64,000 bases of DNA, taken from IMG/VR virus record IMGVR_UViG_3300045107_000036, positions 1 to 64,000 of that record. One strand, written 5' to 3'. The notes under the pieces were generated by a model, which ran no database searches, had not been told where the DNA came from, and was given only the letters and a program-made list of their open reading frames with translations. Each line of letters begins with the position of its first letter. The stretch's first letter is position 1. The stretch comes from a virus. The translations under genes and the position numbers were made by a program. This document shows, piece by piece, positions 6,532-38,429 of this stretch.

Positions 6532-6533
6532 GT

Positions 6534-18716: not shown

Positions 18717-18948
18717 ATGAAGAAGGACAGTCTCGGCGACCGCATGAAGGGCTACGAGTTCCAATACTCAGGCCAACAACTCCTTCCGCTCATTCCCATC
18801 GTGGCCCGGATGGACGGCAAGGCGTTCCACACCTTCACTGCGGGTCTGAAGCGGCCGTTCGACGAGCGGCTGTCCCGGCTCATGGTGGCGACCACCAAGT
18901 TCCTCGTCCAAGAGACGAACGCACGGGTCGGTTACACCCAGAGCGACG
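18717..18948 (+). CDS. tRNA-His guanylyltransferase-like protein (Thg1), exon 1
   Basis: Exon 1 encodes residues 1-77 plus the first base of codon 78. The Thg1 signature RMDGKAFHTFT (D33) and the first part of the catalytic GYTQSD motif (D77) are here. The next residue, Glu78, is completed only after removal of the group II intron at 18949. Joined to 21308-21915, it gives a 279-residue protein in one frame. Thg1 enzymes add nucleotides 3'-to-5', making G(-1) of tRNA-His or repairing tRNA 5' ends. Without splicing, the frame stops within 20 bases of intron. Confidence 0.88.
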
Positions 18949-19528
18949 GTGCGACACGAGGTCGCTGAACTGAAGTGGAGGTAACTCCAAGGTTTGTGTT
19001 AAACCTTTTCCCCATCCCACATGCGTCTCTGGCAACGGAGGCGTGTGAAGCTGGGAGCAAGAATGCCCAACGGCGAGTACCCAAATTGCGGGAGAAAGCC
19101 GGGGCGGGGGAAAGACTGCTACGGTAAGCGAAAGCGAAGTTCCATTTGAAGCGTCGTGATGAGTAGGCTCGGCAATGCAATTGACGCCGGGTTATCTGGG
19201 ATCACAGAAGGGCTGGCTGTCTTCGTCTGGCAACGGCCAGTAACACCCCTCCGATCCCCGGCGTATAGGAACTACCTACGGCAGTCGTACCTTCGGTTCT
19301 GCGGAACGTGTTAAGCCTGTTGGGGTCTTGAAGGTTTCGGCCCGAAAGCAAGTGAAGCGTGAGCAACACTGGACTCCCCAGCAGGTAAAGGATGTCGGAT
19401 CAAGCGAATGCCAGCAGCCGAAAGGCAACGGGAATCCATAACCGGCTGGATAGGGTAATGCCCGACCCGAAAGGGTGCTGAATTCCGACAGGTGATCGGA
19501 CGGAAGATTTCAAGGGAAGGAGGGATAA

Positions 19529-21211
19529 ATGGAGAACGAAAAGCAAAGCGTAAGTTCCCAGCAAAAGTGCGACTGGAACAGCATTGACTGGTCCCACGTC
19601 GTCACTTTTGTACGCCGCCTTCGCCAAGAGATTTTCCGTGCCGCCAAAGAGGGAAACCTCAAGAGGGTGCGAAGTCTTCAGCATGTTATGCTGCGGAGCT
19701 ACGAGAACCGCTGTCTGGCGGTTCGACGGGTGACGCAGTTGAACAAAGGGAGGACGACGCCGGGGGTGGACAAGATCGTTGTCAAAACCCCCGAAGCAAG
19801 GGGACGCCTCGTGGACGAGTTGGCTGAATACCAACTCGCCAAGAAGTGTCCCGCACGACGGATTTATATACCGAAAGCCAACGGCAAGCTCCGTCCTTTG
19901 GGCATCCCTGACATCACGAACCGTGCTGTTCAGGCGATGGTGCTTAACGCACTGGAACCGTTCTGGGAAGCGAAGTTCGAGGACTCGTCCTACGGTTTCC
20001 GACCGAAACGCTCTTGCCAAGATGCCATCGCTCGCATCTTCAAACTCACCAGCCAAGGTGGGAAATTGTGGGTGCTGGACGCTGACATCAAGGGAGCCTT
20101 CGACAACATCGACCACGACAAGCTGATGCAGTTGATCGGGAATTTTCCCGCAAGGGAATTGATCCGGCAATGGCTGAAGGCGGGTTACGTCGAATTCGAC
20201 GGCAGCTACCACGACACCCATGCGGGTACGCCGCAAGGTGGAGTGATTAGTCCCTTGTTGGCGAATATCGCTCTTCACGGAATGGAGGAGGTTCTGGGCG
20301 TCAAGTACCGGAAAAACACCCGCAAGGGGACCGGGAAGACCACCTACGAACTGGCTCCGAACTCGGTTGGGCTGGTCAGGTACGCCGACGACTTCGTGGT
20401 GTTGTGTCACTCCAAGGAGGAAGCCGAAGCAATTCGGGCGAAGCTAGTTGTCTGGTTGAAGGAACGTGGTCTGGAACTCTCTGAGGAAAAGACCCGTATC
20501 ACCCATCTGGACGAAGGTTTCGACTTCCTTGGGTTCAACATCAGGAGGTACAAGACGCTGACCTCGAAGAAGGGCGACAAGCTCTTCATCAAGCCCAGCA
20601 AGAAGTCCGTGAAGGCCATCAAGCAGAAGCTGAAGGAAACCTTCCGCAAGTATGACGGGCGACCTTTGGAAGAACTGATCTCCAGAGTGAACCCGATCAT
20701 CCGTGGGTGGTGCAACTACTTCCGATGCTCGGTGGCGTCCCGAACTTTTGACGGCCTCGACAACTATCTGGTCCAACTGCAATACCGTTGGGTCAGGCGG
20801 CGTCACGCCAACAAGAGTTGGGGGTGGCTGAAGCGGTATTGGGGGAACTACCGGAAGGGTGCAAAATGGGTGTTCGGCACGTCCGAATGCTACATGATGA
20901 AACCTTCTTGGGTTCTCATCAAGAGGCACGTTGTTGTCCAGCGGTTCGCCTGCTGGGACGACCCCGCCCTTGAACAGTATTGGGAGGAGCGGGACGCTGA
21001 AAAGGCGTCCGACCTCTTGACTGTCAAGAAGCGTCAGGTCGCCAAACAACAGAACTTCTTGTGTCCTGAGTGCGGCGAAAGCCTCAACAACGGCGAGGAG
21101 TTACATGAGCATCATGTGAAGCCTCGTTCGGAAGGTGGGGACGACAGCCTCGCAAACCTCCGCATTCTTCACTTGTACTGCCATCTGGCAAAGCACGGGA
21201 AGAAGGCGTGA
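19529..21211 (+). CDS. group II intron-encoded protein: reverse transcriptase, maturase, HNH endonuclease
   Basis: The product is 560 aa; AAGGAGGG precedes the ATG. RT blocks run from about residue 80: IYIPKANGKLRPLGIP, SYGFRPKRSCQDAI, LDADIKGAFDNIDHDKL, GTPQGGVISPLLANIALHG, and catalytic RYADDFVVLC. A maturase (X) domain follows, with IIRGWCNYFRCSVASRTF. The C-terminal HNH endonuclease has CPEC, EHHVKPRSEGGDDSLANL and LHLYCHLAKHG. Length and order match active intron proteins. It would help the intron splice and invade intronless Thg1 alleles. Confidence 0.95.
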   Translation: MENEKQSVSSQQKCDWNSIDWSHVVTFVRRLRQEIFRAAKEGNLKRVRSLQHVMLRSYENRCLAVRRVTQLNKGRTTPGVDKIVVKTPEARGRLVDELAEYQLAKKCPARRIYIPKANGKLRPLGIPDITNRAVQAMVLNALEPFWEAKFEDSSYGFRPKRSCQDAIARIFKLTSQGGKLWVLDADIKGAFDNIDHDKLMQLIGNFPARELIRQWLKAGYVEFDGSYHDTHAGTPQGGVISPLLANIALHGMEEVLGVKYRKNTRKGTGKTTYELAPNSVGLVRYADDFVVLCHSKEEAEAIRAKLVVWLKERGLELSEEKTRITHLDEGFDFLGFNIRRYKTLTSKKGDKLFIKPSKKSVKAIKQKLKETFRKYDGRPLEELISRVNPIIRGWCNYFRCSVASRTFDGLDNYLVQLQYRWVRRRHANKSWGWLKRYWGNYRKGAKWVFGTSECYMMKPSWVLIKRHVVVQRFACWDDPALEQYWEERDAEKASDLLTVKKRQVAKQQNFLCPECGESLNNGEELHEHHVKPRSEGGDDSLANLRILHLYCHLAKHGKKA

Positions 21212-21233
21212 TTGGTGGCTAAGCCGATTGCTT

Positions 21234-21307
21234 GAGCCGTGTGAAGGGAAACTTACACGCACGGTTCTTAGGGGAGGGCGGGCAGCGATGTTCCGCCCTT
21301 ACCCGAC
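21234..21307 (+). ncRNA. group II intron ribozyme core, domains V and VI
   Basis: Domain V is 34 nt: GAGCCGT (from 21234) pairs with ACGGTTC (to 21267), with the typical bulge and GAAA-type loop. Domain VI has a GGGCGG/CCGCCC stem and an unpaired A near ...TTACCCGAC, the expected lariat branch site. The intron ends at 21307. Confidence 0.85.
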
Positions 21308-21915
21308 AAATCTCGCTCGTGTGGTACTCCGACGAGATCGACGCCGAACACTTCTTCGACGCCAAGTTGTTGAAGATGACTTCCGTGTTGGCGTCGATGA
21401 CCACGGCGTTTTTCAACCGCAACCTGAAGGACTACCTCCCAGAGAAGGCCGACCGGATGCCCCTGTTCGACGCACGGGTGTACAACGTGCCGACGGATTG
21501 GGAGGCGACCAACTACCTGATCTGGCGGGAGATGGATGCCACCCGGAACAGCGTCAGCATGGCGGCTCAGTCGATGTTCTCGCACAAGGAGTTGCAGAAC
21601 AAGTCGAGCAGCATGATGCAGGAGATGATGTTCCAGACCCACGGGGTCAACTGGAACAACTACCCGGACTTCTTCAAGCGGGGCACCTACCTCGCTCGAC
21701 GGAAGACCGAGCGGCCGTTCAGCACCGAGGAGTTGGACAAGCTCCCGCCGATGCACGCCGCCCGGAAGAACCCGAACCTCACCATCACCCGTCAGGAAGT
21801 GGTGGCGTTGGACATCCCGCCGCTCAAGCGGATCGCCAACCGGGAAGAGGTAATGTTCGAGGGGGCCACCCCGGTTCTCAAAACGGAGTCGGAACCAGTT
21901 ACTCAGGAGGAGTGA
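21308..21915 (+). CDS. tRNA-His guanylyltransferase-like protein (Thg1), exon 2
   Basis: Exon 2 begins with the last two bases of codon 78 (Glu) and continues ISLVWYSDEIDAEHFFDAK, typical of Thg1 after the S-D-E motif. A later segment, PTDWEATNYLIWREMDATRN, with conserved Trp/Arg/Asp/Asn, is also a Thg1 hallmark. The C-terminal tail is longer and less conserved. A frame open into the intron 3' end is an artefact. The next gene begins one base after the stop. Confidence 0.88.
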
Positions 21916-22139: not shown

Positions 22140-22754
22140 ATGCTCAAGTCGCAAGCGTTAGAAGTCATCAACACCAAGATCACTGCATGTAACAAGTGCA
22201 GTGGTCTTTCGGAGTACCGGAATCACTTCGAGTACAAATACGTCCCCGGCGAGGGCCACCCGAACGCCGACATCCTTATCCTCGGTGAAGCTCCGGGAGA
22301 GGACGAGGCGTGGTCCGGGCGACCTTTCGTCGGTAAAGCCGGTCAGCTTCTCGACAAGCTCATCGCCGCCGCAGGGTGGAAGCGGGAACACATCTTCATC
22401 TGCAACATCCTCAAGTGCCGCCCTCCGTTCAACCGGACGCCCACGAAGGAAGAAGCGGCCAACTGCCGCCCGTTCCTCGATCTCCAGATCAAGGTCGTTG
22501 ACCCCAAGTGGATCATCTGTCTCGGCAAGACGGCATCGATCTACCTGCTGGGCAAGCCAGAGGAACGGTCGATGGGTAGTTTGCGTGGTGAACACGAATA
22601 CAAGGGGAAGCGGGTCATTTGCACCTACCACCCCTCGTATTTGTTGAGGACGCCCGCAGCGAAGGCCGACGTGTGGGCGGACCTGCAACCCGTGATCCTG
22701 GCGATGCGTGAGGCGGCTGAAAAAGCTGCTTTACAACCCGAAGCACCACTGTAA
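22140..22754 (+). CDS. type-4 uracil-DNA glycosylase (iron-sulfur)
   Basis: The product is 204 aa. Motif A is GEAPGEDEA with GRPFVGKAGQLLD; motif B is HPSYLLR. Cys17 and Cys20 (CNKC), with later Cys in CNILKCRPP and ANCRPF, match the 4Fe-4S ligands of family 4 UDGs. It would remove uracil from DNA, whether from deamination or as an attack on uracil DNA. Related domains occur in SPO1-type phages. It follows the small membrane gene by 7 bases; a promoter for the next operon lies in its 3' end. Confidence 0.9.
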   Translation: MLKSQALEVINTKITACNKCSGLSEYRNHFEYKYVPGEGHPNADILILGEAPGEDEAWSGRPFVGKAGQLLDKLIAAAGWKREHIFICNILKCRPPFNRTPTKEEAANCRPFLDLQIKVVDPKWIICLGKTASIYLLGKPEERSMGSLRGEHEYKGKRVICTYHPSYLLRTPAAKADVWADLQPVILAMREAAEKAALQPEAPL

Positions 22755-22793: not shown

Positions 22794-23597
22794 ATGGCGA
22801 ACAAGGCACACCTGATCGTGATCGACCCGCAGAACGACTTCTGCGACCCGAAGGGGGCACTCTACGTCAACGGGTCCGACAAGGACATGAACCGGCTGGC
22901 GACGATGGTCGGGCGGCTGCGGGACAAGCTGCACGACATCCACGTCACCCTCGACAGCCACCAAGCGATCCACATCGCCCACCCGGTCTTCTGGAAGAAC
23001 TCGGCCGGGCAGCACCCGAACCCGTTCACGATCATCTCCGCTGCCGACGTGCGGAACGGGACGTGGACGACCAGCAAGCCGGGCCTGTACAAGCGGGCGC
23101 TCGCCTACGTCGAGGGGCTGGAGAAGAACAGCCGCTACCCGCTGTGCATCTGGCCCCCGCACTGCCTGATCGGGTCGTGGGGGCACGGGGTCTGGCCCGC
23201 CCTGTACGAGAAGCTGATGGACTGGTCGAACCAGCGGTTCGGCAGCATCGACTTCGTGACGAAGGGCAGCAACATCCTGACCGAACACTACTCGGCGATC
23301 CAGGCCGACGTGCCGGACCCGAGCGACCCAGGCACCCAGATCAACACCGGGTTCCTCCAGACCGTGAACGAGGCGGACATCGTGCTGCTCGCCGGGGAGG
23401 CCGGGAGCCACTGCCTCGCCAACACCGGCCGGGACATGGTGAACTACTTCCCGGACGACAGCTTCGTGAAGAAGCTCGTCCTGCTGACCGACGCCACGTC
23501 GCCGGTCCCTGGGTTCGAGAAGAACCAGGACGACTTCATCAAGGAGATGGTGGCCCGTGGCATGAAGACCACGACCACGACGGACTTCCTGGCGTAA
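22794..23597 (+). CDS. pncA: nicotinamidase (isochorismatase-fold hydrolase)
   Basis: The product is 267 aa, with GGAGG 7 nt before the ATG. The catalytic triad can be read as Asp in VIDPQNDFCDP (residue 11), Lys in FVTKGSN, and the nucleophilic Cys in GSHCLANT. DSHQAIHIAHPVFW supplies metal-site Asp/His, as in PncA. It would convert nicotinamide to nicotinate, the entry step of NAD salvage. The three later steps are encoded at 24550, 29467 and 26623. It is slightly longer than typical bacterial PncA, as in some phage and fungal forms. Confidence 0.88.
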   Translation: MANKAHLIVIDPQNDFCDPKGALYVNGSDKDMNRLATMVGRLRDKLHDIHVTLDSHQAIHIAHPVFWKNSAGQHPNPFTIISAADVRNGTWTTSKPGLYKRALAYVEGLEKNSRYPLCIWPPHCLIGSWGHGVWPALYEKLMDWSNQRFGSIDFVTKGSNILTEHYSAIQADVPDPSDPGTQINTGFLQTVNEADIVLLAGEAGSHCLANTGRDMVNYFPDDSFVKKLVLLTDATSPVPGFEKNQDDFIKEMVARGMKTTTTTDFLA

Positions 23598-23609
23598 CCC
23601 AACACCCAC

Positions 23610-23628
23610 GGGGCGGGAAACCCGCCCC
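23610..23628 (+). terminator. weak hairpin terminator after pncA
   Basis: GGGGCGGG/CCCGCCCC with a 3-nt loop is followed by only two Ts. It could attenuate rather than stop transcription into the VWA gene. Confidence 0.5.
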
Positions 23629-23657
23629 TTCACTCAAACAAGACACAGGAGAATACC

Positions 23658-24452
23658 ATGCCCCTCGTAGGCGACGACGACCTGGAGAACTTCAACATCC
23701 CGAACTCGCACTACGGATTCTCCGCTGCGAAGATCGGCGATCTCCAGGCGACCGAGTACACCCTGGCGACCGTCGTGTTCGACGAGTCCGGTTCGACGGC
23801 CGGGTTCGCCGGGGAGATGGAGAAGGCCACGCAGGAGATCGTGAAGTCCTGCCGCCACAGCCCCCGTGCCGACAACCTGATGCTCCGCACCGTCGTGTTC
23901 GGCACGAAGATGAGCGAGTTCCACGGGTTCAAGCTGCTCGAAAACTGCAACGTGGCCGACTACCAGGGCTTCTACGGGAAGTCCGGCAACGGGGCGACGA
24001 CCGCCCTGTTCGACAGCAGCCACAACGCCATCAAGGCGTCGAACGCCTACGCCAAGCAACTGTCGGCCAACGACTTCCTGTGCAACGGGATCGTGTTCGT
24101 CATCACCGACGGTGACGACAACGCCTCGCTGCTCACGGCGGTCAACGTCGGCGAGGCGCTGAAGGAGGCGGTGCAGTCCGAGGCGATGGAGTCCCTGGTG
24201 GCGATCCTGATCGGGGTGAACGTCAACGACCCCCGGCTGCACGCCTACCTGACCGAGTTCGCCCAGAAGGCCGGGTTCACCCCGGTCAAGGTCAAGGACG
24301 CCAGCGGGAAGGAGACGGAAGTCCCCTACCTGTCGCTGAACGACGCCAGCGAGAAGACCCTGGCGAAGCTGGCGAAGTTCGTCAGCCAGTCGATCAGCAG
24401 CCAGTCCCAGGCGCTCGGCACGAAGGGGCCGAGCCAGAGCCTCGTGTTCTAA
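23658..24452 (+). CDS. VWA-domain protein, TerY-like
   Basis: The product is 264 aa; GGAGAATACC precedes the ATG. MIDAS residues are visible: DESGST (DxSxS) near residue 41, a Thr in GNGATTALFDS near 115, and an Asp in FVITDGDDNAS near 153. This matches metal-dependent von Willebrand factor A domains. With the PP2C-like phosphatase at 28671 and the kinase-like gene at 30557 it recalls the TerY-P triad (VWA, PP2C, kinase). It is flanked by pncA and pncB, tying it to NAD synthesis. Confidence 0.85.
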   Translation: MPLVGDDDLENFNIPNSHYGFSAAKIGDLQATEYTLATVVFDESGSTAGFAGEMEKATQEIVKSCRHSPRADNLMLRTVVFGTKMSEFHGFKLLENCNVADYQGFYGKSGNGATTALFDSSHNAIKASNAYAKQLSANDFLCNGIVFVITDGDDNASLLTAVNVGEALKEAVQSEAMESLVAILIGVNVNDPRLHAYLTEFAQKAGFTPVKVKDASGKETEVPYLSLNDASEKTLAKLAKFVSQSISSQSQALGTKGPSQSLVF

Positions 24453-24477
24453 CACGGGGTCTTAACCAGGAAAGCGC

Positions 24478-24527
24478 AAGCCGTGGAGAAATCCACGGCT
24501 TACTTTTTTGCCCGAAGATGGTATCAT
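24478..24527 (+). promoter_or_regulatory. terminator fused to a downstream promoter
   Basis: AAGCCGTGG/CCACGGCTT (24478-24501) with a T-run to 24509 ends the VWA transcript. The T-run overlaps a possible -35 (TTACTT, 24500-24505), with TATCAT (24522-24527) 16 nt further. This would start pncB transcription. Confidence 0.65.
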
Positions 24528-24549
24528 GGGATAACAAGAGGAGAAAGCC

Positions 24550-25782
24550 ATGACAACGGAATACATCGACCCGGAATGCAAGATCATCCCGTCCATCTTG
24601 GACAACGACTGGTACAAGTTCCTGATGGGCAACGCCGTCTTTCAGGAATACCCGGACGCCCAGGTGACGTACAAGTTCATCGACCGGGGCAGCACCCGGC
24701 CCGACGGCTTCAAGCACGGCGTCATCCCTTACAAGCTCCAGCAGGCCATCAAGAGCATGGCGAAGCTGAAGTTGGAAGACCACGAACTCGCCTACCTCTC
24801 CAACCTCGGCTTCCCGAGGAACTACATCGACTTCCTCCAAAACTTCTTCTACAACCCGGAAGAGGTTGCCATTGGTGAAGACCCGCAGGGCAACCTGAAG
24901 ATCACCGTGTCCGGCCCGTGGAAGACGGCGATCATGTGGGAAGTTCCACTACTCGCCCTCGTCAGCGAGTTGACCTTCGCCGCCGAAACGACCAACCTGA
25001 AGCGAAAGACCGGATCGCTGGTCGCCGGTTACGCCGCCGCCCAGGGGGCGAAGGCGACGTTCATGGGCGAGTGCAAGTTCTCTGAGTTCGGCACCCGTCG
25101 TCGTCGGAGCTTCGAGATTCAGGACGCCGTGGTCGCCGAGTTCAAGAAGCACAACAACTGCCTCGGCACGAGCAACGTCTACCTCGCCAAGAAGTACAAC
25201 ATGGCCCCGCTGGGCACCGTCGCCCACGAGTGGTACATGGGCGTCTCAGCCCTCGAAGGGCTGAGCCACGCCAACAAGCACGCCCTCAACCTGTGGCTGA
25301 AGCACCTGCCGCTCGGCTTGCCGAAGCTCGCCCTGCCTGACACGTTCGGCACGGACGTGTTCCTGCTGGACTTCGACAAGCACTTGGCAAATGAGTACGA
25401 CGCCGTGCGGCAGGATAGCGGCTGCCCACGGGCGTTCGCCAACAAGATTCTCAGCCACTACCGCAAGCTGGGGATCGACCCCAAGACGAAGGGGATCACG
25501 TTCAGCGACGGCCTGAACGCCGGGCAGGCGGTCGAACTGTACGATCTCTACAAGAACTGCTTCAAGTCCGTCGGAGCGGGGATCGGGACGAACTTCACCA
25601 ACGACTTCGTTCCCTTCGGCGGCACGAAGGCGATGAATATCGTCATGAAGCTGGCGACCGTCAACGGGATGCCGGTGGTGAAGATCAGCGACGTGGACAC
25701 GAAGGCGACCGGCGACCCCGAAGCCGTCAAGGTGGCGAAATGGACATTCGCCAAGCGGCTTGGCCTAAAGAGAGACTTGTAA
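24550..25782 (+). CDS. pncB: nicotinate phosphoribosyltransferase
   Basis: The product is 410 aa, full length for the family. ILDNDWYKFLMGNAVF at the N-terminus, EFGTRRRRSFEIQ mid-protein, GTSNVYLAKKYNMAPLGTVA and its following His (near residue 226, the auto-phosphorylated His in PncB), then EYDAVRQDSG and GITFSDGLN for PRPP binding. It would make nicotinate mononucleotide from nicotinate and PRPP. GAGGAGAAAGCC precedes the ATG. It follows its own promoter and precedes map. Confidence 0.93.
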   Translation: MTTEYIDPECKIIPSILDNDWYKFLMGNAVFQEYPDAQVTYKFIDRGSTRPDGFKHGVIPYKLQQAIKSMAKLKLEDHELAYLSNLGFPRNYIDFLQNFFYNPEEVAIGEDPQGNLKITVSGPWKTAIMWEVPLLALVSELTFAAETTNLKRKTGSLVAGYAAAQGAKATFMGECKFSEFGTRRRRSFEIQDAVVAEFKKHNNCLGTSNVYLAKKYNMAPLGTVAHEWYMGVSALEGLSHANKHALNLWLKHLPLGLPKLALPDTFGTDVFLLDFDKHLANEYDAVRQDSGCPRAFANKILSHYRKLGIDPKTKGITFSDGLNAGQAVELYDLYKNCFKSVGAGIGTNFTNDFVPFGGTKAMNIVMKLATVNGMPVVKISDVDTKATGDPEAVKVAKWTFAKRLGLKRDL

Positions 25783-25808
25783 GACTACATTATGCCAGGG
25801 AAGGCACA

Positions 25809-26576
25809 ATGACCGTAACAGAAGAAATCATCATCAAAACGCCGGAGCAGATCGAGGGTATCCGAAAAGCATGTAAGCTGACGGCCCAAACCCTCGATTT
25901 CATCCGGCCACACGTTGTTCCAGGCGTCAGCACGGAGGCGATTAACCAACTCGTCATCCAGTTCACGCAGGATCACGGCGGCACTCCGGCCACGCTCAAC
26001 TACCGTGGCTACCCGAAGGAGTGCTGCATCTCCATCAACGAAGTCATCTGCCACGGCATTCCTTCAGAGACAACCATTCTGAAGGAAGGTGACATCGTGA
26101 ACGTGGACGTGTCCACGATCCTCGACGGCTACTTCGGCGACACGTCCACGATGTTCGCCGTCGGGCCGATCAGCCGTCACGCCGCTCAGGTAATGGAAGT
26201 CGCCAAGAAGTGCCTGGAAGTCGGCATTAAGGAAGTCCGACCGGGTAACTACTTCGGCAACATCGGTTTCGCCATCACCAAGTACGCACTGACTCACGGC
26301 CACTCCGTCGTGTACAACTTCGCCGGTCACGGGGTCGGGTTGAAATTCCACGAAGCCCCGGAAGTCAATCACTACATGACAAAGAAGAATCACGGCCCGG
26401 TCATGAAGCCGGGTATGATCTTCACCATCGAACCGATGATTAACGCCGGTACGCCGCACTGTCGGATCGACGCCGACAATTGGACGGCTCGGACGGCGGA
26501 CGGTAAGCTATCCGCTCAGTACGAACACACGGTTCTCGTTACTGAGAAAGGCGTGGAGATTTTGACCCTGCCCTGA
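25809..26576 (+). CDS. map: methionine aminopeptidase, type I
   Basis: The product is 255 aa from ATG 25809; an upstream in-frame start lies inside pncB without a ribosome site. Metal ligands fit the pita-bread fold: Asp in VNVDVSTI and GYFGDTSTMF, His in GHGVGLKFHEAP, Glu in FTIEPMI and QYEHTVLV. The substrate-binding His lies in EVICHGIP. It would remove the initiator Met from proteins. It is an unusual phage gene, placed between two NAD enzymes, perhaps to mature phage proteins when the host enzyme limits. Confidence 0.92.
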   Translation: MTVTEEIIIKTPEQIEGIRKACKLTAQTLDFIRPHVVPGVSTEAINQLVIQFTQDHGGTPATLNYRGYPKECCISINEVICHGIPSETTILKEGDIVNVDVSTILDGYFGDTSTMFAVGPISRHAAQVMEVAKKCLEVGIKEVRPGNYFGNIGFAITKYALTHGHSVVYNFAGHGVGLKFHEAPEVNHYMTKKNHGPVMKPGMIFTIEPMINAGTPHCRIDADNWTARTADGKLSAQYEHTVLVTEKGVEILTLP

Positions 26577-26604
26577 TTTACAACTACGCTCCCAACGGTA
26601 TCCT
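26577..26604 (+). promoter_or_regulatory. sigma70-like promoter TTTACA-N16-TATCCT
   Basis: TTTACA (26577-26582) starts right after the map stop codon and TATCCT (26599-26604) lies 16 nt on. The ATG of nadE follows at 26623 with AAGGAGG in a very short leader. Confidence 0.65.
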
Positions 26605-26622
26605 AGTGTCAAGGAGGACATC

Positions 26623-28674
26623 ATGGACAAGTTCGGCTTTTTCCGCATTGCGGCCGTTTCGCCCAGGGTCTACGTCACCGACCCGGCGATGAACGCCAAA
26701 TCCATCATCGAAGCGGCACAGGCCCAAGCCGACGCCGACCTGATCGTCTTTCCCGAACTCGCCGTCACCGGCTACACCTGCGGCGACTACTTCGGCCACA
26801 AGCACCTGATCGACGCCGCCGAACAGGCCGTCATCGAACTCTGGAAGCACCTGCCGACCACGCCCCTCGTCTTCGTGGGCTGTCCGGTCCGGGTGGAAGG
26901 TGCGCTTTACAACTGTGCCCTGGCGTTCCAAGACCGGAAGCTCATCGGCATCGTCCCGAAGACGTACATGCCGAACTACGGCGAGTTCTACGAGGGCCGT
27001 CACTTCTCGCCCTGGAATGCGAACTGTCCGACCGAAGTCTACTTCGCAGGCGGGGTCATCCCGTTCGGCCCGGACCTGATGTTCGCCGACGACCGACGGC
27101 CGGGCCACGATGTCCGCATCTTCGCCGAAATCTGCGAAGACATGTGGATGCCCATCCCGCCTTCCTCCCACGCCGCCATCCACGGGGCGCAAATTCTCGT
27201 CAACCTCTCGGCCAGCAACGAACTCGTCGCCAAGAGCGAGTACCGGATGGACTTGGTGAAGAACCAGTCGGCCCGGTGCGTGGCGGCTTACGCCTACTCT
27301 TCGGCCGGTTCCACCGAAAGCAGCAGCGATGTCGTGTTCGGCGGGCACTGCATCATCGCCGAGAACGGCAACCTGCTCAACGAGTCCAAGCGGGTCGGCA
27401 AGGGGCTGAAGTACAAGGAAGTCGCCTACGCCCGTGCCGACGTGGACTTGATGAAGCTCAACAACGACCGGGCGAAGTCCAACACCTTCACTCAGTCGAG
27501 GCGGCACGACTACCACCAGTACCGCCACATCCCGGTCTGGTTCCAGGTCACGGAGACGCCCAGGACGGACCTGCTGCGGTACGTCGCCCCAGCCCCGTTC
27601 GTGCCGAGTGACCCGACCACGCTTCAGGCCCGCTGCTCGGACATCTTCGGCATTCAGACGCACGGTCTGTGCAGGCGGATCGAACAACTCCAGCCGAGTA
27701 CGCCGCTTGTCATCGGCGTCTCCGGTGGCCTGGACTCCACGCTGGCCCTGCTGGCGGTGGTCCGTGCCTGCGACGAGTTGGGCATCCCGCACACCCGAAT
27801 CCACGGGGCAACGATGCCGGGGTTCGGTACGACCGAGCGGACGAAGGGGAACGCCCTGGAACTGATGCGTCTGCTGGGCATCACGCAGTCCACGATGCCG
27901 ATCACGCACCTGACCAGCGACGTGATGACGCTGATCCGTCATGCCCCATTCGGTCAGGAACAGCCTTACGGCTACGGGATGTTCCAGTGGATCAACAAGC
28001 TCATCGAAGAGACGCCCGCCGAAGAACTGAAAGACCTGACGTTCGAGAACGTCCAGGCCCGTCTGCGGACCCTGTTACTCTTCTCGAAGGGGTTCGTGGT
28101 CGGTACGGGTGATCTCTCGGAGGCGGCTCTGGGGTGGTGTACCTACAACGGCGACCACATGAGCAACTACAACCCGAACTGCACCGTGCCGAAGACGCTC
28201 GTGAAGTTCGTGGTCAAGTACATCGCCGACGAGTGCATCGACGACTTCGTGATAGAGGGCGGTAACGAGAAGCGGGACAAGCTCGCCAGCGTCCTCTACG
28301 ATATCGTGGCAACGCCTGTATCCCCGGAACTTCTGCCGGTGGGTAAGGACGGCCAGCACGTCCAGAAGACGGAGAGCGTCCTGGGGGCGTATGAACTCCA
28401 CGACTTCATCCTGTTCAACTTCCTGCGGAACCAGTTCCCGCCGGAGAAGATCGCCTACCTCATGACGAAGGCGAAGTTCTCGATAGACTACACCGAGGGC
28501 GAGAAGAAGAACGCCCTGCGGACGTTCCTGGCTCGGTTCGTTCAGAACCAGTTCAAGCGGAACTGTGTCCCGGACGGCCCGAAGGTCGGTTCTGTCGGCC
28601 TGTCGCCACGGGGCGACTGGCGTGCCCCGTCTGACGTGTTACCCGCACTGTGGCTCTCTGGAGTTCCTGAATGA
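26623..28674 (+). CDS. nadE: glutamine-dependent NAD synthetase
   Basis: The product is 683 aa. The N-terminal nitrilase-type glutaminase (about 1-280) shows Glu in FPELAVTGYTC, Lys in IVPKTYMPNYGEFYE and the nucleophile Cys in FAEICEDMWMP (near 169). The C-terminal synthetase has the PP-loop GVSGGLDSTLALLA (near 366), VGTGDLSEAALGW and FVIEGGNEKRDKL. It amidates nicotinate adenine dinucleotide to NAD+, using glutamine. It heads a tight operon: the PP2C gene overlaps its stop (ATGA), followed by nadD. Confidence 0.95.
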   Translation: MDKFGFFRIAAVSPRVYVTDPAMNAKSIIEAAQAQADADLIVFPELAVTGYTCGDYFGHKHLIDAAEQAVIELWKHLPTTPLVFVGCPVRVEGALYNCALAFQDRKLIGIVPKTYMPNYGEFYEGRHFSPWNANCPTEVYFAGGVIPFGPDLMFADDRRPGHDVRIFAEICEDMWMPIPPSSHAAIHGAQILVNLSASNELVAKSEYRMDLVKNQSARCVAAYAYSSAGSTESSSDVVFGGHCIIAENGNLLNESKRVGKGLKYKEVAYARADVDLMKLNNDRAKSNTFTQSRRHDYHQYRHIPVWFQVTETPRTDLLRYVAPAPFVPSDPTTLQARCSDIFGIQTHGLCRRIEQLQPSTPLVIGVSGGLDSTLALLAVVRACDELGIPHTRIHGATMPGFGTTERTKGNALELMRLLGITQSTMPITHLTSDVMTLIRHAPFGQEQPYGYGMFQWINKLIEETPAEELKDLTFENVQARLRTLLLFSKGFVVGTGDLSEAALGWCTYNGDHMSNYNPNCTVPKTLVKFVVKYIADECIDDFVIEGGNEKRDKLASVLYDIVATPVSPELLPVGKDGQHVQKTESVLGAYELHDFILFNFLRNQFPPEKIAYLMTKAKFSIDYTEGEKKNALRTFLARFVQNQFKRNCVPDGPKVGSVGLSPRGDWRAPSDVLPALWLSGVPE

Positions 28675-29477
28675 ACGCCGACGCCTTCTACACCATCGGT
28701 TCGACGCACGCAGTCTGCCAGGACTACGCCCTGTCGGGTTTGACTGAGGACATGGCCTACGCAGTGATCTGCGACGGCTGTTCCTCGGCCCCGGACACGG
28801 ATTGGGGCGCACGGTTGCTGGCGAAGTCCGCCGAACTCTCGCTGAAGCGGACCGGGGGTGTAATCGGTGAAGCGGTGTTCAAGGCCGCAGACCTGCACCG
28901 GCACGGTCTGGAACTCGATCCGAACTCGCTCCTGGCGACTCTGGGGTGGGTGACGATGAGGAAGAACGATCCGAACTTCGGCGGGTGCCTGTACGGTGAC
29001 GGCAACATCATCGCCCGTCACCGCAGCGGCAAACTCCAGGTCGTGACCGTCGAGTTCACGTCGGGCGGACCGTACTACTTGAAGTACGGCTTCACCCCCG
29101 GCGACCGGGAGGAGTACCTGAAGAAGCTCGGCTGGGGGAAGTTCGTCGTCACGACCATTGACGACGACGTGAGTGTCAACGAGATGGGTATCGAGTACGG
29201 GTTGAGCGGATGGGCGTTCTCCTTCTCCCGTGCCGAGTACGACATGGTGGCCCTCATCACCGACGGGCTGAGCCACTTCACCGAGAAGGTGAAGAACGCA
29301 ACCTCGATCACGAAGAACACGGTGGAGATCGACTCCATCCTGAACGAAGTGATGGCTTTCAAGGGTTACGCTGGGACGTTCGTTCGCAGGCGTTGCCACA
29401 AGGCGTTCGAGAAGTTCAAGGAATACAACTACATCAACGAAGATGACTTCGGAATAGGAGTGGTATATGACGGATAA
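28671..29477 (+). CDS. PP2C-like protein phosphatase
   Basis: The product is 268 aa. The PP2C metal-binding start is YAVICDGCSSAPDTDWGARL (residues about 31-50, with Asp36), as in the PP2C_2 family. The central acidic residues lie in LYGDGNIIAR, and a later ALITDGLSHF supplies the second conserved Asp. It would dephosphorylate Ser/Thr, probably opposing the kinase at 30557. It is translationally coupled to nadE (4-nt overlap) and nadD (11-nt overlap). Confidence 0.8.
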   Translation: MNADAFYTIGSTHAVCQDYALSGLTEDMAYAVICDGCSSAPDTDWGARLLAKSAELSLKRTGGVIGEAVFKAADLHRHGLELDPNSLLATLGWVTMRKNDPNFGGCLYGDGNIIARHRSGKLQVVTVEFTSGGPYYLKYGFTPGDREEYLKKLGWGKFVVTTIDDDVSVNEMGIEYGLSGWAFSFSRAEYDMVALITDGLSHFTEKVKNATSITKNTVEIDSILNEVMAFKGYAGTFVRRRCHKAFEKFKEYNYINEDDFGIGVVYDG

Positions 29478-30048
29478 GACCAGGACGGTCGCAGTTCTAG
29501 GCACGGCAGCCGACCCGCCGACTATCGGACACCAGCAACTCATGTGTCTGGCTCGCCCGCACTTCGACGAAGTGTGGGTGATGCCCTGCTACAAGCACAT
29601 GTTCGGCAAGGTCATGTCTGACCCGTTCCATCGGCTTCGCATGTGCGAACTGATGGTGGATCATCTCGGCCCGTGGGCCAAAGCCAGCGACTTCGAGATC
29701 AAGCACCAGCTTCAACTCCCGACGATGGGGGTCTACGAACTGCTGCGGGATGCTTATCCGCAGTATCAATTCCACCTGATGATCGGGATGGACAACGCCC
29801 TGAAAATCGAGAAGTGGGTTGGCTATCCTGCTTTACTGGACGTGGTGCCGTTTGTAGTATTTGACAGAGCCGGTTACACCCGTGGTAACGAGTGGTGGCA
29901 TCGCCCTCCCCACAAGTACCTCGCCGGTGCGAACCTGCAAGTGGCGTCTTCTGACTTCCGCCGGATGTACGAGGCACACGACCCGGAGGCAGCCAAGCTT
30001 GTCCTCCACGACACTTACCTCTACGTCCAGGCAAACAACCTCTACTGA
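29467..30048 (+). CDS. nadD: nicotinate/nicotinamide mononucleotide adenylyltransferase
   Basis: The product is 193 aa. The nucleotidyltransferase fold begins VAVLGTAADPPTIGHQQLM, equivalent to GxFxPxHxGH. The ATP-site signature ASSDFRR near residue 167 corresponds to ISSTxIR. LMIGMDNALKIEKW matches the ligand-binding segment of NadD. It would turn NaMN into NaAD between PncB and NadE. The choice between NadD-like and NMN-specific activity cannot be made from sequence. It overlaps the PP2C gene by 11 nt. Confidence 0.87.
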   Translation: MTDKTRTVAVLGTAADPPTIGHQQLMCLARPHFDEVWVMPCYKHMFGKVMSDPFHRLRMCELMVDHLGPWAKASDFEIKHQLQLPTMGVYELLRDAYPQYQFHLMIGMDNALKIEKWVGYPALLDVVPFVVFDRAGYTRGNEWWHRPPHKYLAGANLQVASSDFRRMYEAHDPEAAKLVLHDTYLYVQANNLY

Positions 30049-30058
30049 GGGCACGATC

Positions 30059-30544
30059 TTGGACACGACGAAGCGAGAATCGGCGACGGCTCTGATCCAC
30101 AAGATGTTCGAGGAGAACGAGAACATCTCCTTCGAGGAGATGGTGCGGCAGTTCAAGGAGAAGCACCCGACCCGGATGGACGTGCCGAACAACCAACTCT
30201 TCCAGTACGCCCGGAAGACGTGGCGGGACAAGAAGGCGAAGGCCAAGCCGCTCGCCAGCCCGGCCCACGCCCACGGCACCCCGGCGGCGACGGGGACGGT
30301 TCAGCCGGTCAAGAAGAAGCCGGGGCCAAAGCCGAAGAAGAAGCTGGTCATCAAGCAGGCGACGGTCATCCCCGGCACGCCCCCGGAGAGTCCGGTCGGC
30401 GGGATGCTGGAGAAGCTGGAAGCCGACCTGGACAAGCTGATCGCCACGGCTGGCGAGTTCAAGGACAAGGACGTGGAAGCCATGAGCCGGAAGATGCGGC
30501 GTCAGGTCAGCAGCCGCATCCTGGCCCTGGAAGAAGTCAAGTAA
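30059..30544 (+). CDS. basic AT-hook-like protein
   Basis: The product is 161 aa if the TTG at 30059 is used, with GAGGGC 7 nt upstream; the first ATG in frame is 30104-30106. The N-terminal half is helical (ALIHKMFEENENISFEEMVR) and basic (KTWRDKKAKAK). The centre carries VKKKPGPKPKKK, an AT-hook-like motif. A C-terminal helix has KDVEAMSRKMRRQVSSRI. Likely a nucleic-acid-binding accessory. It sits between nadD and the kinase with gaps of about 10 bases. Confidence 0.65.
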   Translation: MDTTKRESATALIHKMFEENENISFEEMVRQFKEKHPTRMDVPNNQLFQYARKTWRDKKAKAKPLASPAHAHGTPAATGTVQPVKKKPGPKPKKKLVIKQATVIPGTPPESPVGGMLEKLEADLDKLIATAGEFKDKDVEAMSRKMRRQVSSRILALEEVK

Positions 30545-30556
30545 CCCGAGGGCAAC

Positions 30557-32239
30557 ATGAAGCTCACTCTCAAGGGGAAGCGTCTCGAAGTGAACCTCGA
30601 CAAGAGGAACTTCCTCGCCAAAGGCGGGGAAGGTGAGGTTTACTCGAAGGGCGGCGTGGTTTACAAAGTCTGCGAACCGGGGAAGATGATCCCGGAGCAG
30701 AAGTTCAAGGAACTCGCCGTCCTCGACGAGCCGCACATCATTCGGCCGGAAGACATCCTCGTGGACACGAAGGGCGTCGATGTCGGGTACACGATGAAGC
30801 TCGTGCCCGACGCCTACACCCTCTGCCAGTTGTTCACGAAGGCGTTCCGCACCCGGAACAACGTCACCCCGGACATGGTGCTGAAGCTGGTCCGCCAGAT
30901 GCAGGCGACCACCGGCTTCATCCACTCGAAGAAGGTTCTGCTCGTAGACCTGAACGAGTTGAACTTCCTTCTGGACGCTCCCCTTGAGAACGTGTTCTTC
31001 ATCGACGTGAACTCGTACCAGACGCCGAGCTACCCGGCCACGGCGATCATGGAGTCCATCCGGGACCGCCACTGTAACAACAAGTTCACTGAAGGAACGG
31101 ACTGGTTCTCGTTCGCCGTCGTCACGTTCCAGATGTTCATCGGGATTCACCCCTACAAGGGGAACCACCCGAAGTTCACGGACAAGAACACGGCGATGGA
31201 CGGCCGCATGAAGGCCAACATCTCCGTCCTCAACCCCGACGTGACCTACCCGAAGGCCGTCTGCCAGCCGCTCTCCGTCATCCCAGACGTGTACCTGAAG
31301 TGGTACGAGGCCGTTCTGGACCGTGGGATGCGGGTGCCGCCGCCGTTCGATCTGGTCGCCAAACTCGCCGTCATCACGACCGTCAAGACGATCAAGGGCA
31401 GCAACAACTTCGACATCGAACTGCTGCGGGAGTTGGACGAGGAGATCGTCGGCTACCGCTACAGCCAGGGCACGGAAGTGGTGCTGTGCCAGGGATGCGC
31501 ATATGTGAACGGCAGACGTGTCGCACTCGCACACCCCGTCCAGATCGGATTCCTGGGTGCTACCCCGCTGGCCGTGTGGACCGATCACGGCACGCTGAAC
31601 ATCCAGAACATCCTGACGGGCGACAAGATTCCCATTACCTGCAACGCCGAGAAGGTGTTTACCTCTGGCGACCGGGTGTACGTCCTCCTCGGCGGGAACG
31701 TTCTGGAACTTACCTTCACTGGTCTGGGAAGTAAAGTTCTCGCCGGGACCACTGTCGTTGGGACATACATCCCACAGTCCACGAAGGTTTTCGAGGGCTG
31801 CTTGATCCAAACCCTGTTCGACGCCACGATTGCGTCGATCTTCCCGAACAGCCGGGAGAACCGGCAGATCGCCATCAAGGAGCTTAACGGGCTTCAGGTG
31901 GTGGACGCCCGCTACCACAACCGGCTGTTGGGCATCATCACCGTGGACCGGACGGGCAAGTACGCTCGCCACACGCTGCGGTTCGCTGCCGACTGGAGCT
32001 ACGAGATCAGGACCGTCTCGGACGTTTCCGTGCCCTCCCTGAACTTCGTAGGGCTTCCAACGGGCATCGGCGTGCTGATGAATGAGCAGGAAAACGTCGA
32101 GATTTTCCGTGTCGATCATCCGAGCGTCAAAGAGATCGACGATCCGGTGACGGAAGGCGACATGATCTTGACCGCTCGGGACTCCCAAGTCATGTTCTTC
32201 CAGGGCAAGAAACTCTATTCGATCAAGGTCAGAAAGTAG
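30557..32239 (+). CDS. Hanks-type kinase-like protein with C-terminal beta-rich domain
   Basis: The product is 560 aa. The N-lobe has a glycine loop LAKGGEGEVYS (21-31) and Lys37 in VVYKVCE. The usual HRDLKxxN becomes VDLNELNFLL near 130, keeping Asp and Asn. The DFG position reads FIDVNSY near 149, so Asp is kept but Gly is lost. GTDWFSFAVVTFQMFIGIHP is a typical alpha-F region. Residues about 290-560 resemble a beta-propeller. Activity is plausible but reduced. It closes the operon nadE-PP2C-nadD-AT-hook-kinase and pairs naturally with the phosphatase and VWA protein. Confidence 0.75.
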   Translation: MKLTLKGKRLEVNLDKRNFLAKGGEGEVYSKGGVVYKVCEPGKMIPEQKFKELAVLDEPHIIRPEDILVDTKGVDVGYTMKLVPDAYTLCQLFTKAFRTRNNVTPDMVLKLVRQMQATTGFIHSKKVLLVDLNELNFLLDAPLENVFFIDVNSYQTPSYPATAIMESIRDRHCNNKFTEGTDWFSFAVVTFQMFIGIHPYKGNHPKFTDKNTAMDGRMKANISVLNPDVTYPKAVCQPLSVIPDVYLKWYEAVLDRGMRVPPPFDLVAKLAVITTVKTIKGSNNFDIELLRELDEEIVGYRYSQGTEVVLCQGCAYVNGRRVALAHPVQIGFLGATPLAVWTDHGTLNIQNILTGDKIPITCNAEKVFTSGDRVYVLLGGNVLELTFTGLGSKVLAGTTVVGTYIPQSTKVFEGCLIQTLFDATIASIFPNSRENRQIAIKELNGLQVVDARYHNRLLGIITVDRTGKYARHTLRFAADWSYEIRTVSDVSVPSLNFVGLPTGIGVLMNEQENVEIFRVDHPSVKEIDDPVTEGDMILTARDSQVMFFQGKKLYSIKVRK

Positions 32240-33537: not shown

Positions 33538-33570
33538 TATATAGACGTATCAAGGAGGTTTCCCGTCTAT
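33538..33570 (+). promoter_or_regulatory. late-type promoter overlapping a start-codon hairpin
   Basis: TATATAG (33538-33544) lies 24 nt before the ATG of 33569. ATAGACG (33541-33547) is an exact complement of CGTCTAT (33564-33570), which includes the AT of the start codon. AAGGAGG lies in the loop. RNA starting about 33551 would lack the 5' arm and be freely translatable. Confidence 0.6.
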
Positions 33571-34600
33571 GGCACTCGTCTGGGTTGAAGGTTTTGAAAA
33601 CTACACGCAAAGCTCGGACTTCACGGCCCGTGGCTACACGATTAACGGCACGAACTTCCAGTTCGGACAGACCGGCAGGCTCGGCACCGGCACGTCCTGC
33701 TATTTCGCCGACGACCGCATTCTGACCACACCGGACAACATCCTGGCTTCCCCCACGGTTATTACCGGCTTCGCCTACAAGATCGACGACCAGAACACGC
33801 AGAACGTCGGCAGCGGCTTCCTGCTCTACTTCTATAACGCCACGACACTGCAACTCACTATCTCGTTGACGCAATCGGGCCACTTCTTCGCTTCTAGGGC
33901 GGGTGGCACCCTACTCGGAAGCATCGGGACCATCGGCGTCCCGAACAACGGGACTTGGTTCTGGGTTGAGGCAAAGGTAGTGATTAACAGCAGCACCGGC
34001 TCGGTGCTGGTCAAGGTCAACGGCCAGACCGTGTTGAACCTGACCAACGTGAACACGCAGCAAGCGGCTTCTGCGAACGTGACGAAGGTCGCCCTGGCAG
34101 CCGACAACTTCCCCGGCTGGTTCGACGACTGGTACATCGCAGACAACACCGGGAGCTTCAACAACGACTTCCTCGGCTCGATCAAGGTTCTGACCAGCAA
34201 CCCCATCGGCAACGGCTCGACGAACCAGTGGACGCCCGTCGGTGCGGCGAGCAACTACCAGTGCGTAGACGAGACGGCCGTCGCCAACGGTAACACCGAC
34301 TACGTTGAAGACAGCACCGCAGGGCACGTTGACCTGTACGACGTGACCAACGTGCCGACCGGCCTCTCGGGCAAAGCCGTGTGGGTCGAGTGTTCGGCGG
34401 AAAAGACGATTGCGGGCACCCGGCAGATCAGACTCCAGGCCCACTCCAGTGCGTCGGACGCCACGAGCGGCGTCCTCAGTCCCACTCAGTCGGTCTACGG
34501 CTATTTCGGTTACGCCTTTGATAAAGACCCGAACGGCAACATCGACTGGACGGGCACGAACATCAACGCAGCCGAGTTCGGCGTGAAGCTGGAGGCATAA
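33569..34600 (+). CDS. concanavalin-like virion/tail protein, copy 2
   Basis: The product is 343 aa. It starts MALVWVEGFENY and ends NINAAEFGVKLEA, the family frame. Jelly-roll-like middle: NGTWFWVEAKVVINSSTGSV, LVKVNGQTVLNL and WFDDWYIADNTGS. It is the first gene of a five-gene plus operon. Tail-fibre or head-surface lectin roles are likely. Stop and next start overlap (TAATG). Confidence 0.8.
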   Translation: MALVWVEGFENYTQSSDFTARGYTINGTNFQFGQTGRLGTGTSCYFADDRILTTPDNILASPTVITGFAYKIDDQNTQNVGSGFLLYFYNATTLQLTISLTQSGHFFASRAGGTLLGSIGTIGVPNNGTWFWVEAKVVINSSTGSVLVKVNGQTVLNLTNVNTQQAASANVTKVALAADNFPGWFDDWYIADNTGSFNNDFLGSIKVLTSNPIGNGSTNQWTPVGAASNYQCVDETAVANGNTDYVEDSTAGHVDLYDVTNVPTGLSGKAVWVECSAEKTIAGTRQIRLQAHSSASDATSGVLSPTQSVYGYFGYAFDKDPNGNIDWTGTNINAAEFGVKLEA

Positions 34601-35598
34601 TGACACTACTGCTCGCAGACGGATTCGACACTTACACCACGAACGCCGACATGAAATCGACTTGGCAGGTTTCCAACGGCGGCGTCACCGTTGCGCAAAC
34701 GGGCCGATTCAGCGTGGGGTCGTCGATCCGCATCCCATTCGGCCGGTACATCGCCTACCCTCTGGACAACACCCCGACCACGCTCATCGTTGGGTTCGCC
34801 ATGTACCCCACGATCATCCAGCGGGACAACCGGACTTTCCTTCGGCTGTTGAGCCAGACGGCGGGTGTTTTGTTCCAGTTCCAGTGGTTCGACACCAGTC
34901 CGAGATTCACCGTCGGTTCCACGACCTACAGCCCCGCACCAACCTTAATCAATGAAGGTTGGCACTATTTCGAAGTCAAGTTCATCGTCAGTGCAACCGT
35001 GGGGCGGGTAGTGGTGCGCATCGACGGGTCACAGGTGATCGACACGGGGAACGTGAACACCGGCACGACCGGGGTCGGTTCGGTCCGGTTCCTCGGTTAC
35101 GACGACGTGAGGTTCAGCGGCAACCTCTTCGACGACATCTACATCTGTGACGGCAACGGGAGTACGAACAACGACTTCCTCGGCCCGTGTAAAGTAAGAT
35201 ACTTCCTGCCGACGGCCAACGGCGACACGAACAACTGGACCGCCAGCACCGGGTCGAACTACCAGTGCGTTGACGACACGCCGCCTTACAACACAACCGA
35301 CTACGTTTCGACAACAGGCGTGGGTAACAAGGATAACTACACCTTCCAGACGGTCAGCAACTTCGCCGACATCAAAGGCGTAGCGGTATATCTGGTCGCA
35401 ATCCAGACTGACGTTGAACTGAAATCAATCCGGGCGATTGCGAAATCCGGTGGGGTCGAGGCCACCGGGTCGGCCCAGCAGACCTTTAACAGCTACTACC
35501 CGCACCTGACCGTGTTCGAGACGGACCCGAGTACGTCGGTGGCGTGGACGCAGAGCGGGGTCAATGCGGCTTACTTTGGCATCAAACTGGAGTCATAA
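34600..35598 (+). CDS. concanavalin-like virion/tail protein, copy 3
   Basis: The product is 332 aa, beginning MTLLLADGFDTY and ending VNAAYFGIKLES. GWHYFEVKFIVSATVGRVVV and DDIYICDGNGSTNNDFLG match the other copies. TAATG overlaps at both ends give coupled, roughly equal expression. Divergence between copies is high except at these motifs. Confidence 0.8.
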   Translation: MTLLLADGFDTYTTNADMKSTWQVSNGGVTVAQTGRFSVGSSIRIPFGRYIAYPLDNTPTTLIVGFAMYPTIIQRDNRTFLRLLSQTAGVLFQFQWFDTSPRFTVGSTTYSPAPTLINEGWHYFEVKFIVSATVGRVVVRIDGSQVIDTGNVNTGTTGVGSVRFLGYDDVRFSGNLFDDIYICDGNGSTNNDFLGPCKVRYFLPTANGDTNNWTASTGSNYQCVDDTPPYNTTDYVSTTGVGNKDNYTFQTVSNFADIKGVAVYLVAIQTDVELKSIRAIAKSGGVEATGSAQQTFNSYYPHLTVFETDPSTSVAWTQSGVNAAYFGIKLES

Positions 35599-38421: not shown

Positions 38422-38429
38422 GGAGAAGG

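Follow-up and report, generated by a model that had tools for sequence, protein, structure and literature searches.

Salvage of nicotinamide adenine dinucleotide (NAD+) by phages is already known from NARP1, NARP2 and the NadV/NadM systems. NARP2 consists of Nampt and Nmnat. NARP1, a phage NAD+ reconstitution pathway, consists of Adps (Prs-like) and Namat (Nampt-like) according to the accessible portions of PMC12774641 and PMC13232231. NAD+ salvage by NadV, NadM and NadR in jumbo and KVP40-like phages has been proposed to counter NADase effectors (available parts of PMC7824862 and PMC9503650). Here we describe a related but chemically different locus in a 64,000-nt stretch (hereafter the window, meaning this whole stretch) of the 64,807-base virus record IMGVR_UViG_3300045107_000036. 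It encodes a PncA-like nicotinamidase, the nicotinate phosphoribosyltransferase PncB, a NadD-like adenylyltransferase and the glutamine-dependent NAD+ synthetase NadE, a set of genes predicted to cover the complete deamidating route from nicotinamide to NAD+. These NAD genes are threaded between the genes of a recurrent quartet consisting of PncA itself, a vWA-domain protein, a PP2C-type phosphatase and a protein kinase. We consider it fairly probable that the locus is a seven-gene phage module in which deamidating NAD+ salvage is tied to the phospho-signalling quartet and sustains NAD+ during infection.

The gene order is PncA, vWA, PncB, methionine aminopeptidase (MetAP), NadE, PP2C, NadD, a further open reading frame (ORF) and the kinase:

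22794..23597, + strand: PncA-like nicotinamidase, 267 amino acids (aa); conserved triad and metal-site residues, a confident model and nicotinamidase folds at PDB ranks 1-22, scores below curated cut-offs
23658..24452, + strand: vWA-domain protein, 264 aa, quartet member; conserved residues, homologue L007 near the PF00092 cut-off
24550..25782, + strand: PncB, nicotinate phosphoribosyltransferase, 410 aa; TIGR01514 384 bits (cut-off 269.55, passed)
25740..26576, + strand: type I MetAP, start possibly further in; TIGR00500 311 bits, above cut-off
26623..28674, + strand: NadE, glutamine-dependent NAD+ synthetase, 683 aa; NF002730 747.7 bits (cut-off 473, passed), CN_hydrolase and NAD_synthase Pfam domains above cut-off
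28671..29477, + strand: PP2C-type phosphatase, quartet member; PF13672 38.6 bits (cut-off 24)
29467..30048, + strand: NadD-like nucleotide adenylyltransferase, 193 aa; TIGR00482 match below cut-off, similarity to 1kam, TIGH and SSxxR motifs
29861..30544, + strand: ORF between NadD and kinase, open frame whose true start is uncertain and probably lies after 30048
30557..32239, + strand: Ser/Thr-type protein kinase with a C-terminal beta-propeller-like domain, 560 aa, quartet member; PF00069 match, conserved residues and model

The NadE frame runs 4 bp into that of PP2C and the PP2C frame 11 bp into that of NadD, and most starts are preceded, as judged by eye, by GGAG-like ribosome-binding sites. 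An Rfam scan at the cluster returned no riboswitch or other known RNA above gathering scores, except for two group II intron parts.

The window encodes a tail sheath protein, a T4-type sheath stabiliser and T4-type baseplate proteins. A longer viral contig of 244,986 bases, with terminase and tail sheath matches, contains the window's PncA, PncB, NadE and kinase, each at 100% identity. Because of the tail and baseplate genes in the window and the terminase and sheath in the longer contig, phage origin was accepted for the window and an artefact of a host contig or misassembly was rejected. From these genes we take the carrier to be a T4-like jumbo myovirus. A search for near-identical named phages gave no megablast match for positions 18000-42000 of the window among 50,697 phage records.

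Like NARP1 and NARP2, the locus would provide phage-encoded NAD+ resynthesis from nicotinamide, a product of NADase attack; those systems employ amidated-route enzymes, whereas the route in the window opens with a deamidation followed by three further enzymes. An earlier sequence-only reading of the window had stated that NARP1 and NARP2 use other enzyme pairs, and the sequences agree with this difference. PF13793 (Prs-type), expected for NARP1, had no match in the 245 kb contig, which is possibly incomplete, and the sole PF04095 match there was the nicotinate-type PncB, which does not fit NARP2 or NadV/NadM. The NadV/NadM/NadR phages are alike in being large phages with NAD+ synthesis genes, but the available text describes a nicotinamide phosphoribosyltransferase and nicotinamide mononucleotide (NMN) adenylyltransferases, that is the amidated route, unlike the window. 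Neither "Nicotinamidase" nor "NadE" occurs in PMC9503650, and "PncA", "NadE" and "isochorismatase" are likewise absent from PMC7824862.

Several named phages come closer in part. Xanthomonas phage X1 has pncB, nadM, nadD, nadE and NAMPT in its DRAM-v list, with a suggested role against NAD+ depletion; the accessible text of that report (PMC13384950) holds no nicotinamidase ("nicotin", 0 occurrences), gene cluster or kinase/PP2C/vWA partner. The isolated jumbo phage Sinorhizobium phage Phosso (PV764938.1) combines, within ~6 kb, NadE and PncB with an adenylyltransferase and a nicotinamidase-like hydrolase (NF008623 33.7 bits, below cut-off). It is unlike the window in its short ammonia-type NadE, NadM-like adenylyltransferase, different short hydrolase and Nudix gene, and no kinase, PP2C or vWA product is named in the 17 kb stretch examined. 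At this Phosso locus (L285, 10325-12222) the Nudix protein, which weakly matches an ADP-ribose-responsive repressor family (34.9 bits), adjoins the adenylyltransferase and nicotinamidase-like genes. A nicotinate phosphoribosyltransferase is annotated in Agrobacterium phage Atu_ph07, which also has NadR and PnuC, and in Ralstonia phage RsoM2USA, which has an NMN adenylyltransferase/Nudix protein; a NadE match was found in Atu_ph07, and the portions of the annotation available for the two phages name no nicotinamidase.

Identity of the four NAD+ enzymes

PncA residues D11, K157, C207, D54, H56, W120, H123 and C124 were invariant in all 55 distinct viral sequences including that of the window, and H63 was kept in 53 of the 55. 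We take these residues, by comparison with known nicotinamidases, to be the D-K-C catalytic triad and the D/H metal site; both are present in the window's protein, as is a WPxHC-type signature. Pfam Isochorismatase PF00857 was matched at E <=0.01 by 41/52 PncA homologues. An AlphaFold model built from 52 aligned viral sequences reached a mean predicted local distance difference test (pLDDT) score of 96.8, and in a PDB fold search with this model ranks 1-22 were all nicotinamidase/pyrazinamidase chains (best 2wta, E 1.2e-16), the first other hydrolase, an isochorismatase-like protein, appearing at rank 23.

PncB aligns near full length with the solved enzymes 1yir and 1vlp, and residues 4-680 of the 683 of NadE align with the glutamine-dependent NadE of M. 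tuberculosis (3dla). The adenylyltransferase was assigned as NadD-like only and is the least certain step of the pathway: residues 5-193 match B. subtilis NadD (1kam; phmmer E 4.7e-12) and SSxxR is retained, with a first motif of TIGH instead of HxGH. The sequence-only reading had placed all four genes on one strand with intact signature motifs; strand and coordinates proved correct, and the motifs were intact in PncB and NadE, held up well in PncA and did so less in NadD. Its claim that a full deamidating route is present was borne out at the level of sequence, with all four ORFs where it had put them.

The enzyme activities are predictions from homology. PncA would convert nicotinamide to nicotinate, from which PncB would form nicotinate mononucleotide (NaMN); the NadD-like enzyme would convert NaMN to nicotinate adenine dinucleotide (NaAD), and NadE would amidate NaAD with glutamine to NAD+.

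The PncA, vWA, PP2C and kinase quartet

When the neighbours in the window were compared with all loci, the constant companions of PncA were found to be the vWA, PP2C and kinase genes rather than the NAD genes. The sequence-only reading, sound on the pathway, had overlooked these interleaved genes. A full quartet lay within the fetched stretch at 58/65 viral PncA loci (49/55 distinct PncA proteins). All 58 were on one strand, 55 of them were ordered PncA-vWA-PP2C-kinase and the median span was 4,765 bp. The seven loci without a full quartet comprise L038 and L060, where PncA has NAD genes next to it but practically no quartet partner, L059 with weak partner matches, L058 with PncA alone, and L013, L015 and L037 with two partners. 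The search from the kinase side gave a similar picture: the best 80 of 128 loci were kept and 79 analysed (L024 excluded), with PncA at 74, vWA at 74, PP2C at 77 and a complete quartet at 73. Four of the five kinase loci without PncA were cut short upstream by the contig end, and at the fifth (L323) a distance of 0.9 kb separates vWA from the stretch edge.

The window's vWA protein has no Pfam match itself, and its homologue at L007 reaches 23.7 bits against the PF00092 cut-off of 23.8. Its residues D42, S46, T115 and D151 were kept in 49/49 sequences, with position 44 being S in 42 and T in 7. Five PP2C residues (D18, D35, D198, D258, D259) were kept in 42/42, and we presume that the conserved PP2C and vWA residues have the functional roles known for such residues. 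The kinase scored 27.6 bits against PF00069, below the cut-off of 31.7, with K37, D131, N136 and D150 kept in 30/30. Its model (pLDDT 88.3) matches kinases and, for the C-terminal all-beta domain, propellers at low template modelling (TM) scores. PADLOC models gave no match for six of the seven proteins; the kinase matched mads_6 (25.8 bits across 45 residues) and PD-T4-6 (14.3 bits), which falls short of membership in either defence system.

A TerY-P triad combines vWA, PP2C and kinase. The quartet resembles it in having the same three domain kinds in one neighbourhood, a likeness by domain kinds alone, and differs in that a nicotinamidase is added and the kinase carries a propeller-like domain. 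Among the best 80 cellular relatives of PncA, some of them on short contigs, vWA, PP2C and kinase were all found in 17 and at least one of them in 35; nine relatives had PncB beside them in the stretch.

The NAD genes accompany the quartet to varying degrees. The 73 complete quartets found from the kinase side included 14 with one, 9 with two and 11 with all three of PncB, NadE and NadD in the stretch. PncB-NadE stood before, within or after the quartet; that the genes stay together while their order shifts suggests that proximity is selected for, as opposed to a single block being inherited. The PncA tree joins the window first to L007 and L008 (support of 91 in the Shimodaira-Hasegawa-like approximate likelihood ratio test, SH-aLRT) and next to L041 (86); L008 and L041 share its interleaved order. 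The tree contains 18 changes between viral and cellular labels, at least 4 of them forced by starred branches (quick method; 55/132 inner branches open). Single transfer of one bacterial operon was not supported, with viral and cellular rows mixed in the PncA tree and NadE occurring in two sizes. At L029 a 121-aa PncB piece (13738-14100) lies between PP2C and kinase and is perhaps a decaying copy.

Recurrence of the pathway in other viruses

50 large viral records were searched, consisting of 47 with PncA (a count that takes in the virus of the window and some near-duplicates) and 3 picked for PncB; records may be fragments, hence gene absences are not firm. NadD was counted from TIGR00482 matches at E <=1.1e-11, and records with weaker matches (G025, G033, G037, G041) were dropped. 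PncA records of at least 150 kb (n=22) contained PncB in 17, NadE in 18 and NadD in 11, with at least three of the four genes in 18 and all four in 8. The four-gene set, which the sequence-only reading had proposed to look for in phage genomes, recurs in other large viral records. NadE occurred as 250-318 aa frames in 15/30 records and as 462-730 aa frames in 15/30.

Proximity was compared with random placement (20,000 draws, three near-duplicates dropped). PncB lay within 10 kb of PncA in 13/22 records against 2.7 expected (0/20,000 draws reaching 13), NadE in 13/25 against 3.25 (1/20,000 draws) and NadD in 8/16 against 2.0 (4/20,000 draws), figures which overstate the case because the records are related to one another and not independent. 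Leaving out the record chosen for PncB gave 12/21, 13/24 and 8/15, respectively.

From the PncB side, the best 79 of at least 294 viral loci had NadE in 55, a nicotinamidase-type gene in 40, NadD in 19 and all four genes in 9, with partners counted within the fetched stretch. The 40 nicotinamidase-type genes consisted of 17 of the window's long type and 23 weakly scoring ones. Ten of the latter were checked, of which nine matched NF008623 at 143-220 bits (four exceeding the cut-off of 174) and one at 30.7, indicating that the pathway occurs with two kinds of nicotinamidase. At one PncB locus, L286 (Acinetobacter phage MD-2021a, CAKLQH020000008.1), the surroundings of pncB resemble a bacterial chromosome, with thiL, nusB, ribH and phoR as neighbours.

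In the named phage collection (50,697 records, tblastn) the window's PncA was matched in 4 records, PncB in 13 and both in two, and NadE was present in all 6 of the huge-phage records (named or curated) picked for PncA or PncB. Not every relative is a proven phage: PF03237 terminase was found in 13/50 records, and in a different set of 50 the PF04984 sheath was found in 11. Absence of a sheath match says little, because the three huge-phage records LR756511, LR745208 and LR756500 likewise have none. Both near relatives that share the window's interleaved order are supported as phage, G006 by terminase and sheath and G029 by sheath.

Proposed function and alternatives

The observations behind the proposed seven-gene module are the presence of the genes, their conserved motifs and fold, the conserved gene set and its co-location. 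The kinase/PP2C pair, perhaps with vWA as scaffold, may control the pathway or answer to the nicotinamide or NAD+ level, and the phage would thereby uphold its NAD+ level during infection, for example after attack by host NADase defences. A counter-defence role is plausible and fits because such defences release nicotinamide. We tentatively suggest that in large phages the nicotinamidase, a vWA scaffold and the opposing kinase-propeller and PP2C form an undescribed nicotinamide/NAD+ control module that senses or sets the NAD+ state and in its full form drives the whole deamidating resynthesis by reversible phosphorylation while the phage infects, an idea we hold as possible and less probable than the seven-gene module as such.

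A number of results weigh against the seven-gene module. The main one is that most quartets stand without other NAD genes nearby: PncB, NadE and NadD were all missing from the stretch at 39/73 complete quartets on the kinase side and at 34/58 on the PncA side (36/58 without PncB or NadE), so the quartet can do without NAD genes in its vicinity. In the near relative L007, whose record is 62.9 kb long, the quartet is present but none of PncB, NadE and NadD gave a match, and 45 of the best 80 cellular PncA relatives have none of the three quartet partners in the stretch. Where the quartet stands alone, the remaining steps could be supplied by pncB, nadD and nadE of the host. Gene assignments at the divergent seven-gene loci are weaker than those of the window: at 6/11 such loci the phosphoribosyltransferase counted as PncB is longer and divergent, with the four that were scanned matching TIGR01513 (nicotinate-type) at 56-119 bits, below cut-off, and one of two NadE-type proteins scanned beside them passes the TIGR00552 cut-off. 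At another seven-gene locus, L314, the NadD frame has only 105 aa. In the window itself the PncA-like protein failed the cut-offs of PF00857 (21.1 bits, gathering 27) and of the nicotinamidase model NF008623 (30.1 bits, cut-off 174), the NadD-like protein failed that of TIGR00482 (81.7 bits, cut-off 112.45), and NadD motifs vary in related phages.

The low PncA scores, together with ~20% identity to solved nicotinamidases, would suit another isochorismatase-superfamily amidohydrolase, in which case the pathway would have three steps starting from nicotinate; we regard this as improbable given the conserved residues, the WPxHC-type signature and the 22 nicotinamidase chains that head the fold search. 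Some cellular relatives moreover adjoin pncB and nadE: in the bacterial Andreprevotia L226 and Chitinimonas L232 the same PncA family stands next to both genes, as in the phage pathway, although these loci are cellular and have no vWA, PP2C or kinase partners in the stretch. The many quartets without NAD genes, L007 among them, favour instead two adjacent units, with the quartet an independent phospho-signalling or superinfection system that hydrolyses nicotinamide for some other end (e.g., removal of a signal or inhibitor) and PncB, NadE and NadD merely clustering beside it. This we find rather unlikely, since the quartet repeatedly has NAD genes for neighbours, in several orders, NAD frames overlap PP2C on both sides in the window, and at two viral loci, L038 and L060, NAD genes accompany a PncA that has virtually none of the quartet partners.

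A plain metabolic supply, raising NAD+ for replication and transcription generally with no part in counter-defence, is a serious though not the leading possibility; it is compatible with the seven-gene module and overlaps with it in probability. Large phages generally have large synthetic needs, and NAD-dependent DNA ligase was found in 9/50 related records, but no such ligase was found in the 245 kb contig, and the published phage pathway NARP1 counters NAD+-depleting defences according to the accessible part of PMC12774641. Supply of NAD-using phage enzymes, offered as an option in the sequence-only reading, is weakened for this ligase alone, and the ligase as the purpose of the pathway was not supported in the window's phage. 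PRPP (phosphoribosyl pyrophosphate) synthase was likewise rejected as a further partner, being present in 5/50 records and not in the window's phage.

Neither a deamidating set that includes a nicotinamidase nor the quartet was found described for phages in the openly licensed PMC papers searched, a negative that does not prove absence. Individual viral nicotinamidase annotations have been published in a table of phAss-1-like phages (PMC10607447) and in the Shark Bay virome (PMC6008428), as far as the available parts of these sources go. With phage NAD+ salvage itself known, what would be new is the deamidating route with a nicotinamidase, and the quartet, which may deserve a stronger claim to novelty than the pathway. 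If the pathway works, it would be a second, chemically different phage means of undoing NAD+ loss, starting from the nicotinamide left by NADase defences. The conserved tie of PncA to the kinase/phosphatase quartet, seen across dozens of large viral records, would amount to a new level of regulation in the metabolism of phages. The quartet link supplies a defined gene set for testing, and the gradation from the quartet by itself, through quartets joined by one or two NAD genes, to loci with all seven genes allows tests of how phage and host divide the work.

Further features were observed in and around the cluster. MetAP (25740-26576) was found by phmmer at E 1e-4 in none of the other viruses among loci L002-L070. 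A type-4 uracil-DNA glycosylase (22140-22754; TIGR00758 171 bits) ends 39 bp upstream of pncA. Further upstream a gene for Thg1 (tRNA-His guanylyltransferase; 18717-21915) appears to be interrupted by a group II intron: its 5' part spans 18717-18968 and its 3' part ends at 21915, with group II intron RNA domains at 18988-19066 and 21232-21307 (Rfam) and an intron maturase/reverse transcriptase with an HNH-like end at 19529-21211. Three successive proteins of 332-353 aa (33569-36605) are mutually related in appearance, as judged by eye. Finally, a two-gene unit is present in two copies, at 4759-7622 on the - strand and 36616-39452 on the + strand, one gene matching phrog_13560 and the other phrog_2448 in each copy.

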